Assembly: GCA_021799635.1 (NCBI GenBank)
Contig: JAJZAB010000001.1
Span: 284,505-348,504 of the forward strand
Length of the DNA: 64,000 nucleotides
Source: Microcaldota archaeon
GTDB lineage: Archaea > Micrarchaeota > Micrarchaeia > Micrarchaeales > Micrarchaeaceae
Direction of reading: 5' to 3'
Both the position numbers and the translations under genes were made by a program. The notes under the pieces are model-generated. The model was not told the origin of the DNA, searched no databases, and saw nothing but the letters and a program-made list of their open reading frames with translations. How positions within the stretch are numbered: the stretch's first letter is position 1; every line of letters starts with the position of its first letter. This document shows positions 34,799-37,584 of this stretch, piece by piece.

Positions 34799-34901
34799 AA
34801 AACCAGCTGTTATTAATTGATAGTATGTCTAGTTTTGGTATTTATATACTTCTATGGCTTATTTCTATTGTTAATATATTTTAAGGCATGTGGTGTTTTT
34901 G

Positions 34902-36029
34902 ATGAAGCTTGTGATGGCGCAGTCAAACCTTACACTGATGGGCGGCGCCGAGCTCGTTCTGCTGAGGATAGCGCAAAAATACAATCCTGTAATATACACG
35001 GCAGAATACAAAAAGGAGAATACGTTTCCTGAGTTCAGGGAGTTTGACGTAAGGACAATAAGCAAGGGGGTCATGTCCAAGGTGCTGCCGTACGGCAGGG
35101 CAAGCCAGGGCATCGACTACGGCCTGGCGTTCTACAACTTCGTAGTCAAAGAGGACTATGATGTAATAAACGCGCACCTGGCGCCATCACACTGGATAAG
35201 GAATAAAAACGAAAGGGTGCTGTGGTACTGTCATACCCCCCTGCGCGACATATATGATCTCTATGAGTACAGGATGTCGCTCAGGAAACCATACCAGAGG
35301 CCTATCTACAGGCTCGGCGGCGCGATAGTAAGAAGAATGGACAAGGGAGTGGTGAAGAATATAGAATTTATATTCGCAAATAGCAGGAATACCAGTTCAA
35401 GAATAATGAAGTATTACGGAAGGAGGGCTGAGGTCCTGAACGGCGGCGTAGATACAGGTCTCTACAGCAACGGCGGGGACGGAAAGTATTTCCTGTATCC
35501 GTCAAGGTTCTCTCCAAATAAAAGGCAGGAATATGCAATAGAGGCATTCAAAACGTTCAAAAAAAAGCACAGGGGATACAAGCTAGTGCTGTGTGGCAGC
35601 CTATCCAATGACAGCTTTTATTTCCACTACTACAAAAAAATAGTGATGCTGGCAGCAAAAGCCGGGAACGTAGAGATAATACCAAACATAAGCGAAGAGA
35701 GACTCCTTTCCCTATATTCCAGGGCCACCGCGGTGCTATACCCGCCCATAAATGAGGATTACGGCCTTGTGCCGATACAGGCAATGGCAAGCGGCAAACC
35801 TGTGATAGCCGTGAACGAGGGAGGAGTAAAAGAAACAGTAAAGAACGGGAAAACGGGGTTTCTTGTGGGCAGCGAGTCAGAGATGGCGAAAAGAATGGCA
35901 GAGGTTGCAGCTTCAGCAGGACTTTCGGAGTCAATGGGCAAGGAAGGAATCAAGCTTGTGAAGGAAAGATATACATGGAAGGGATTTTTCGAAAGGTTTG
36001 ACAAGCAGTTAAAAAAGATGTCAAAATAG
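34902..36029 (+). CDS. GT4-family glycosyltransferase
   Basis: 375 residues, GT-B fold. NLTLMGGAELVLLR at the N-terminus, SRFSPNKRQEYAIEAFK at the domain boundary, and the donor site PPINEDYGLVPIQAMASGKPVIAVNEGG. ATG 34902 is preferred; GTG codons at 34890 and 34893 keep the frame open. A TAATATATTTTAAGG element (34872-34886) suggests a near-leaderless start. Faces the TBP gene convergently, 30 bases apart. Donor sugar unknown. Confidence 0.9.
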   Translation: MKLVMAQSNLTLMGGAELVLLRIAQKYNPVIYTAEYKKENTFPEFREFDVRTISKGVMSKVLPYGRASQGIDYGLAFYNFVVKEDYDVINAHLAPSHWIRNKNERVLWYCHTPLRDIYDLYEYRMSLRKPYQRPIYRLGGAIVRRMDKGVVKNIEFIFANSRNTSSRIMKYYGRRAEVLNGGVDTGLYSNGGDGKYFLYPSRFSPNKRQEYAIEAFKTFKKKHRGYKLVLCGSLSNDSFYFHYYKKIVMLAAKAGNVEIIPNISEERLLSLYSRATAVLYPPINEDYGLVPIQAMASGKPVIAVNEGGVKETVKNGKTGFLVGSESEMAKRMAEVAASAGLSESMGKEGIKLVKERYTWKGFFERFDKQLKKMSK

Positions 36030-36059: not shown

Positions 36060-36419
36060 TCACTTCCCGGCAGGAGTAAGCTCAATCACGTACTTCGATA
36101 TGACCTTGGCCGCGTAGTCTAGCACCTTCTTTATCTTCGCCTCGGTGTTCGTTCCTGTGCATATCATCTTTCCGTTCTTGAAAAGTATAATCCTGGATCG
36201 TGGCTCAGTTATCTTGAAAATAGCTCCTGGGAACTGCTCAGGTTCGTAATCTACCGCCTTGACCTCCTTAGACAGCGCGTAAAGGTCTATCACGGCATGC
36301 AGGTCTGCGCTAACCACAATGTTCTGTATCTCTATAGGCGGGTTAGACAGCGGTCCATCCATCTGCTTCTGACCGCCCTGTTTTTTTGGTTTGGATTTTG
36401 CCGTTTTAACACCGGACAT
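36060..36419 (-). CDS. TATA-binding protein with only one TBP repeat
   Basis: 119 residues. Archaeal TBP has two direct repeats (about 180-190 residues); here a 27-residue basic, glutamine/glycine-rich N-terminus is followed by one repeat (about 28-116). Strong matches: IQNIVVSADL, VDYEPEQFPGAIF, ITEPRSRIILFKNGKMICTGT and a final helix. The gene is intact, with a TGA stop, no decayed second repeat downstream (the next gene ends at 36029) and its own TATA-like element. It would need to homodimerise to form the saddle. A full-length TBP may exist elsewhere in the genome. Confidence 0.87.
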   Translation of the reverse strand: MSGVKTAKSKPKKQGGQKQMDGPLSNPPIEIQNIVVSADLHAVIDLYALSKEVKAVDYEPEQFPGAIFKITEPRSRIILFKNGKMICTGTNTEAKIKKVLDYAAKVISKYVIELTPAGK

Positions 36420-36435
36420 AATATTATATATAGAA

Positions 36436-36450
36436 AGATTTATATATTCT
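36436..36450. promoter_or_regulatory. Shared TATA element between TBP and reductase genes
   Basis: GATTTATATATTC is TATA-like on both strands. It lies about 24 bases from the TBP start (minus) and about 31 bases from ATG 36475 (plus), so one element could serve both as leaderless promoters. Confidence 0.4.
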
Positions 36451-36474
36451 AAGCAATTCCATCTCTTGATTCAA

Positions 36475-37584
36475 ATGCAAAAGAAAGTAGTAATAGTCGG
36501 TGCAGGGACTGCAGGACTTATACTTGCCAAGCAGCTCGCCTTGGGTGGCGTTGACACCACCGTGCACGAGGCCAAGAAGGCGATAGGTGACGGCATTGAA
36601 AAGGCATCCGGAATACTATCAATAGAAGGATTGAGCAGCCTTGGGATCGACTACGCGGACTCTGTTACAAACATACTAGATACCGCAATCCTGCACGCCG
36701 GAAGGGAGCAGCTGGTGATAAAGACGACAGGAGCGAAGGCCTTTGTTGTAGACAGGCGCGAGCTTGCAAGGCTGTGCGCAAAGGAGGCTACGGCGGCCGG
36801 GGCAAAAATAGTCCTAGACAGCCGGCTGGGCAGGGAGGAGCTTAAGAGTATTGCGGATGGATGCATACTGGTGGGCGCAGACGGCGCTGTTTCAAACGTA
36901 GCAAGCACGTTCGCCTTCCCAAAAATAAACGAATATGTCCTGACATACAAGACGGAATACGAGAACGTCGATATTGACGACTACCATACTGCAGAGCTGT
37001 TCTTTTCAAATAACTCATCCCATCGGTTTTTTGCATGGACTGTGCCATATTCAAAAGAGAGGCTTGAGGTAGGCATAGGCGAAAGCATGCACTCCAAGCG
37101 CAACAGCAAGTCCGCGTTCAACACATTCATAAACAGCTCCGCCATCAGCGGCAGGCTCGATAAAGCGAAGCAGATATACGGCTGCGCAAGCATAATACCA
37201 TTGGAGTGCAGGAAGGAGACAGTAAAGGGCAACGTCCTTCTTATAGGAGATGCTGCCGGGCAGGTAAAGGCCACGACCGGCGGAGGGGTCATATTCGGCG
37301 GAATGTGTGCCAAATCCGCCGCAAGGGCCATACTTGACCATATAAACAAAGGCACAAAACTGGAAATGTATGACAAAGCGTGGAGGAAAGACTACGGCCT
37401 TGATCTAAAACTCCACAAGCTCATACACGAATACTATTCATCGCTCAGCAGCAGCGGTTTTGAGATGGTGCTTAAGATATCAAAGATAGCCGGGGTCGGC
37501 AGTTTCCTTGGCAAATATGGGGACATGGACAAGCCAAGCACAATCCTGAAGAATTTTATACTCAGGGGCAATAAGATTCGTTGA
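36475..37584 (+). CDS. Geranylgeranyl-reductase-family flavoprotein
   Basis: FAD-dependent reductase, 369 residues. VIVGAGTAGLILAKQLA (FAD-binding GxGxxG), VVDRRELARLC, and the second FAD motif LIGDAAGQVKATTGGGVIFGG followed by CAKSA. Members saturate the isoprenoid chains of archaeal lipids. ATG 36475 is favoured over the upstream in-frame start at 36391, which would overlap the TBP gene. Whether its substrate is digeranylgeranylglycerophospholipid or another isoprenoid is unknown. Confidence 0.85.
   Translation: MQKKVVIVGAGTAGLILAKQLALGGVDTTVHEAKKAIGDGIEKASGILSIEGLSSLGIDYADSVTNILDTAILHAGREQLVIKTTGAKAFVVDRRELARLCAKEATAAGAKIVLDSRLGREELKSIADGCILVGADGAVSNVASTFAFPKINEYVLTYKTEYENVDIDDYHTAELFFSNNSSHRFFAWTVPYSKERLEVGIGESMHSKRNSKSAFNTFINSSAISGRLDKAKQIYGCASIIPLECRKETVKGNVLLIGDAAGQVKATTGGGVIFGGMCAKSAARAILDHINKGTKLEMYDKAWRKDYGLDLKLHKLIHEYYSSLSSSGFEMVLKISKIAGVGSFLGKYGDMDKPSTILKNFILRGNKIR

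Follow-up and report, generated by a model that had tools for sequence, protein, structure and literature searches.

A gene on the minus strand of the window (the whole stretch of 64,000 nucleotides that was analysed) raises the question of whether an archaeon can transcribe with half a TATA-binding protein (TBP). TBP, which archaea and eukaryotes alike need for transcription, is regarded as invariably two-lobed, with both lobes going back to one ancient duplication (PMC4910066, PMC7221094), and a review describes it as two-lobed likewise (PMC7289017). A genome study of DPANN archaea counts TBP as conserved and passes over its size (PMC8407392), and a Micrarchaeota paper from 2025 leaves it unmentioned (PMC12892359). 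The open-licence PMC literature yielded no earlier account in which the sole TBP has a single lobe; a description elsewhere is possible.

The single-lobe gene of the window

The gene, referred to here as copy B, runs on the minus strand from its ATG at 36419 to its stop at 36060 (36060..36419) and encodes 119 amino acids. It contains only one TBP domain, in which residues 29-110 correspond to profile positions 2-85 of 85 (Pfam, E=7.3e-23). This bears out the sequence-only reading, which had seen one good TBP repeat here. The closest PDB entries in a phmmer search were archaeal TBPs (1mp9, 2z8u and 1pcz), with the best match on 1mp9 (E=4e-36) and with both repeats of each entry matched. The lobe (36090..36335, minus strand) consists of five strands and two helices. 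Its core was predicted by AlphaFold2 with a pLDDT of 90-98, and the model superimposes on one half of human TBP (1cdw) with 0.8 Å over 82 columns (Foldseek, probability 1.00). Measured against the models of canonical TBP, the single lobe, with 81.6 bits, stays far under all TBP cut-offs of NCBIfam (181-347 bits). The N-domain of bacterial RNase HIII likewise consists of one TBP-type lobe and binds a duplex; however, it is fused to RNase H and is no transcription factor, and the single lobes match its profile only weakly (E=0.12 or worse). An assignment of copy B to this domain type was rejected, as the protein has no RNase H type 2 fusion and one Pfam domain only.

It had also been claimed that no remnant of a second repeat follows the gene. 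This holds in any frame: a six-frame profile search of 1.2 kb on either side of copy B found no second-lobe remnant, the best loose match having E=0.49. The single-lobe gene recurs as a conserved family in more than 40 relatives of the window genome, and dN/dS values of 0.014-0.052 (pairs with unsaturated synonymous sites) indicate strong purifying selection. Taken together, the recurrence and the selection exclude chance, sequencing error and truncation. The basic N-terminal tail, which the sequence-only reading had described as well, is present in the window gene (residues 1-27, 36339..36419, minus strand; 6 K/R and 1 D/E; pLDDT 63-77). However, it is not conserved among the orthologues, several of which begin almost at the lobe, and it is thus no defining part of copy B.

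The YEPEQFPG stirrup (residues 58-65, 36225..36248, minus strand), a C-lobe signature according to PMC7221094, is 100% conserved in all single lobes. It comprises F63 as the first intercalating Phe and the TFB-contact pair E59 and E61 (L3.2/L3.4). The second intercalating Phe, F80 (L5.1), is 100% conserved in every lobe and belongs to the FKNGK motif (residues 80-84, 36168..36182, minus strand), of which 'KNGK' is the form typical of the Micrarchaeota single-lobe clade. Altogether, Y58, E59, P60, E61, Q62, F63, P64, G65, F80 and G83 are kept in every single lobe, and the universal lobe residues N33, F63, F80, G83, K84 and G89 are conserved. Copy B additionally carries the family-specific fixed substitutions V36, I78 and N91, which could mark a changed role.

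Canonical archaeal TBPs (Sulfolobus 1mp9, M. jannaschii 2z8u, Pyrococcus 1pcz/1ais) share with copy B the lobe fold, the contacts to TATA and TFB and the partner TFB, but they have two lobes per chain where the window protein has one. Their N and C lobes are distinct and the glutamates contacting TFB belong to the C lobe only, where positions L3.2 and L3.4 contact TFIIB/TFB (PMC7221094; the contact pairs follow that paper plus our own residue numbering). In the clade, by contrast, the Glu pair is found in 100% of all lobes, compared to 16%/74% in canonical N lobes. Thus, each lobe of the clade could in principle act as a TFB-binding stirrup. When scored with profiles of the canonical N and C lobes, the clade's single lobes fall in between and are slightly C-like with +3 to +6 bits (true N lobes -29, true C lobes +33).

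TFB was present in 42 of the 44 genomes searched, with G174 and the window genome (G000) as the only exceptions, and the equivalent of human R169 and the PRT motif were kept in 26/26 aligned TFBs. The window genome, in which TFB was not found, is an 88%-complete assembly. A loss of TFB from it was rejected because every close relative searched has the gene; as nearly all relatives searched carry TFB, an assembly gap is the most likely cause.

TBP genes in the genome and in other archaea

The window genome comprises 748,639 bp on four contigs and contains two TBP-lobe genes, namely, copy B and copy A (locus L001 at C4:477270, 110 aa), neither of which is two-lobed. The sequence-only reading had proposed to search the genome and its relatives for a two-repeat TBP, and none was detected in the genome or its family. 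A lineage-specific profile search of the whole window genome at E<=10 found only the two single-lobe genes, so that a hidden full-length TBP elsewhere in it was rejected, and nine other genomes profile-searched at E<=10 likewise yielded single lobes only. Ca. Mancarchaeum acidiphilum Mia14, a member of the family that was grown as a co-culture and has a closed circular genome of 952,257 bp (PMC5498576), carries the A and B pair as well; it has exactly two TBP genes, both single-lobe. The family's only two-lobe TBP gene (G017:C43, L003) is of canonical type and lies on an 8.4-kb contig. It is read as a probable contaminant, since its lobes group with Nitrosopumilus and Bathyarchaeota. What the sequence-only reading had named as evidence against itself did not turn up: no full-length TBP exists elsewhere in the genome, the DNA-contact residues are intact and the gene is not truncated.

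In the Micrarchaeota family of the window genome (f1), exactly two TBP lobes were counted in 38/42 matched genomes, and the A and B types occurred in every member in which both copies were typed. The sister family f2 has exactly one single-lobe gene in 18 of its 27 matched genomes and two in the remaining 9/27; the second copy was of the B type in all four cases examined (L115-L118). One of the f2 genomes (G027), a single contig of 771,545 bp, contains exactly one single-lobe TBP gene at a search threshold of E<=10. Given that some genomes have exactly one such gene, a working saddle would need a homodimer in them. More than one TBP gene per genome is likewise known from haloarchaea, but the haloarchaeal TBPs are each full two-lobe proteins and most plasmid matches cover >90% of a two-lobe query.

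Among the other families of the class, about a dozen have single-lobe genes, often exactly one per genome, and about nine a two-lobe gene. A second, small group of phylum level, labelled Diapherotrites at NCBI, mostly has single lobes, which are 88-92 aa long. Among Iainarchaeota, two-lobe genes prevail, and the single-lobe state occurs in one genome (G296). For Nanoarchaeota, a TBP match was obtained in 99/100 genomes, and the matches listed were two-lobe apart from occasional partial or extra ones; the surveyed Aenigmatarchaeota and Thermoproteota were two-lobe with the same kind of exceptions.

Several additional TBP-like genes were encountered in this survey. Many Iainarchaeota possess, besides their two-lobe TBP, a further ORF (~95-120 aa) that matches the TBP lobe weakly (E ~1e-3 to 1e-7; examples are G311:C7:25815-26012 and G327:C46:71835-72029). 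Family f7 (G057 and G065; L094, L095, L096) has extra single-lobe TBP copies besides the housekeeping copy, two of which are ~1 kb apart on the same contig and 97% identical in DNA. A protein of 719 aa from the second single-lobe group (L234:1985-4144, plus strand, G184:C8) has four degenerate TBP lobes, after which come a hydrophobic stretch and an extended C-terminal portion. The gene at L235:1291-1944 (plus strand, G191:C1) encodes a predicted lipoprotein of 217 aa with two TBP lobes (LAGC signal assigned by eye), in which the TBP fold is apparently exported from the cell. Five records titled Candidatus Marsarchaeota (L126, L133, L134, L136, L166) carry TBP genes of Micrarchaeota families, and these genomes are apparently mislabelled.

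Relation of single-lobe and two-lobe genes

Copy A is surrounded by rpl21e, DUF655 and the RNAP subunit gene rpo4/rpoF. L21e adjoins copy A in 50/55 loci, the single lobes of other families in 31/43, those of the second group in 11/18 and the two-lobe TBPs of the clade in 38/49, and the rpl21e/DUF655/rpoF context was found in 0/31 canonical TBP loci. On account of this common locus, the single- and two-lobe genes of the clade are considered as versions of one housekeeping gene.

Between the halves of the clade's two-lobe TBPs, identity reaches 84% in protein and 85% in DNA (L224, L225, L158, L049, L062), compared with 35-56% for two-lobe TBPs in archaea outside the clade. The linkers between the profile ends have 9-16 residues in the clade compared to 6-10 in canonical genes, and many of them look like the N-tails of single-lobe genes. 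In a lobe tree, the N, C and single lobes of the clade were placed together and apart from the canonical N and C lobes. The AU test, carried out on a reduced set of 86 lobes without bootstrap and on 84 columns, rejected one ancient duplication (delta lnL 114, p=0.0003) as well as one shared later duplication (delta lnL 80, p=0.0017). It accepted a position of the clade lobes outside the canonical N/C lobes, with N and with C (p-AU 0.49, 0.53 and 0.41). These comparisons favour a repeated re-fusion of single lobes as the origin of the clade's two-lobe TBPs, for which gene conversion between the halves is a confounder. If conversion explained everything, the two-lobe TBPs of the clade would be the original canonical gene, its halves alike only through conversion, and the single lobes would be repeated independent losses. 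Near-identical tandem halves do convert readily and the trees rest on 84 columns only. However, single lobes are found at one locus across two phylum-level groups and many families, the clade linkers are longer than canonical ones and resemble single-lobe N-tails, and the trees reject both an ancient and a shared later duplication; losses combined with conversion are therefore rather unlikely, though far from negligible.

A fusion of this kind also shows what two such lobes may form. For the natural fusion L225, whose halves are 81% identical, AlphaFold2 predicted a full saddle with a pLDDT of 94.8, which matches Pyrococcus 1ais with TM scores of 0.90/0.93. Predicted as one chain, this saddle is the closest stand-in at hand for a dimer of single lobes. 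Another two-lobe TBP (L224:1345-2466, plus strand) bears a Lys/Ala-rich, histone-H1-like tail of ~140 residues. In the f2 genome G148, a tandem TBP copy (L057, at the end of contig C39) is identical in 99/102 nt and broken by the contig end; it is possibly a very recent fusion, or else an assembly effect.

The sequence-only reading had likened such a homodimer to the proposed ancestral TBP. The prototype of TBP postulated for the time before its duplication (Adachi et al. 2016, PMC4910066) likewise required a one-lobe gene. The single lobes of Micrarchaeota differ from it in being real genes in living cells, and the trees do not place them before the duplication. The trees fit a pre-duplication survivor as well as a secondarily halved TBP; by profile score, the single lobes are slightly nearer to the C lobe. 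It seems doubtful, and we offer it with much reserve, that the single-lobe TBP of Micrarchaeota and the neighbouring phylum-level group is a homodimeric survivor predating the internal duplication, from which two-lobe TBPs would have arisen more than once, here independently of the duplication in other archaea and eukaryotes.

A paired-lobe model and its alternatives

With a probability of roughly three in four, copy B is a genuine single-lobe TBP that, with copy A, makes up the family's only TBPs, the lobes pairing into a TATA-bending saddle bound by TFB. From the genes, copy numbers, residues, fold and synteny observed, and from the repeated two-lobe origin, for which gene conversion is a confounder, we infer the dimerisation, the binding of DNA and TFB and the division between A and B. 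Two lobes (A-A, B-B or A-B) would pair via the edge strand by which ordinary TBP connects its repeats and so rebuild a symmetric saddle able to bend TATA DNA. The idea of the sequence-only reading that paired single repeats rebuild the saddle gains strong inferential support from the lack of a two-repeat TBP in the genome and its family and from several lineages with one single-lobe gene; in the family of the window genome, the pair may be a homodimer or an A-B heterodimer. TFB would bind one of the two equivalent stirrups. As both are equivalent, it would be left to TFB, through its contact with the BRE, to set the direction, as happens in ordinary archaea too (PMC7289017). Copy A, at the rpl21e-DUF655-rpoF locus, would be the housekeeping TBP and sufficient in one-gene lineages. 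Copy B, a later paralogue that is kept in every f1 member examined and optional in f2, would be either A's partner or another TBP that serves some of the promoters.

The sequence-only reading had alternatively considered a second, specialised TBP-like factor. It was right in that the window gene is the second paralogue and copy A holds the housekeeping locus, but copy B has kept its DNA- and TFB-contact residues. A specialised copy B might, for example, act as a modulator, forming heterodimers with A that switch promoters or block them, with A-A as the housekeeping TBP. The location of B away from the conserved housekeeping locus and its own fixed substitutions are compatible with this, and so is the absence of B from most f2 genomes (18/27 have one gene), in which A alone suffices. 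However, all DNA-intercalating and TFB-contact residues are kept in B, the gene is under strong purifying selection and it occurs in every A/B-typed f1 genome; such a specialised role is a serious but less probable possibility. It is quite improbable that a single lobe binds DNA as a monomer without any saddle. RNase HIII does demonstrate that one lobe is able to contact the minor groove of a duplex (PMC7221094), but the single lobes retain all TATA contacts, including the two intercalating phenylalanines, as well as the two contacts to TFB. Moreover, the same gene was repeatedly fused into a two-lobe saddle in close relatives, so that the lobes presumably work as a pair. For a truncated gene, a frameshift or an assembly gap masking a normal two-lobe TBP, the probability is practically nil: the window assembly is 88% complete, but dozens of genomes, including a closed circular one, share the single-lobe state, a second-lobe remnant is absent and the gene is under purifying selection. 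This explanation was regarded as refuted by the searches at E<=10, the remnant search, the dN/dS values and the closed genome.

Under the paired-lobe model, a natural archaeal group apparently transcribes with a half-size TBP, and its relatives apparently re-fused the halves repeatedly. The proposed homodimeric stage of TBP thereby becomes directly testable with real proteins. A symmetric TBP also raises the question of how promoter direction is set, a role so far assigned to TFB and the BRE (PMC7289017).

Copy B has a gene context of its own. A conserved neighbour is a gene for a GT4-family glycosyltransferase (34890..36029, plus strand; Pfam; synteny in 27/28 loci). On the other side, a FAD-binding/geranylgeranyl-reductase-like gene (36475..37584, plus strand; Pfam; synteny in 20/28 loci) diverges from copy B, with the ATG at 36475 chosen by us as its start. 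A search for a symmetric promoter motif in the 64-kb window alone gave a signal too noisy to use. In the upstream scan, most A genes and many B genes were preceded by TATA-like elements. The 55-bp divergent intergenic region (36420..36474) contains TATATAAAT 27 bp ahead of the copy B start codon and, read backwards, the same element lies upstream of the FAD enzyme gene. This near-palindromic TATA-like element could be usable in both directions, which would fit a symmetric TBP.
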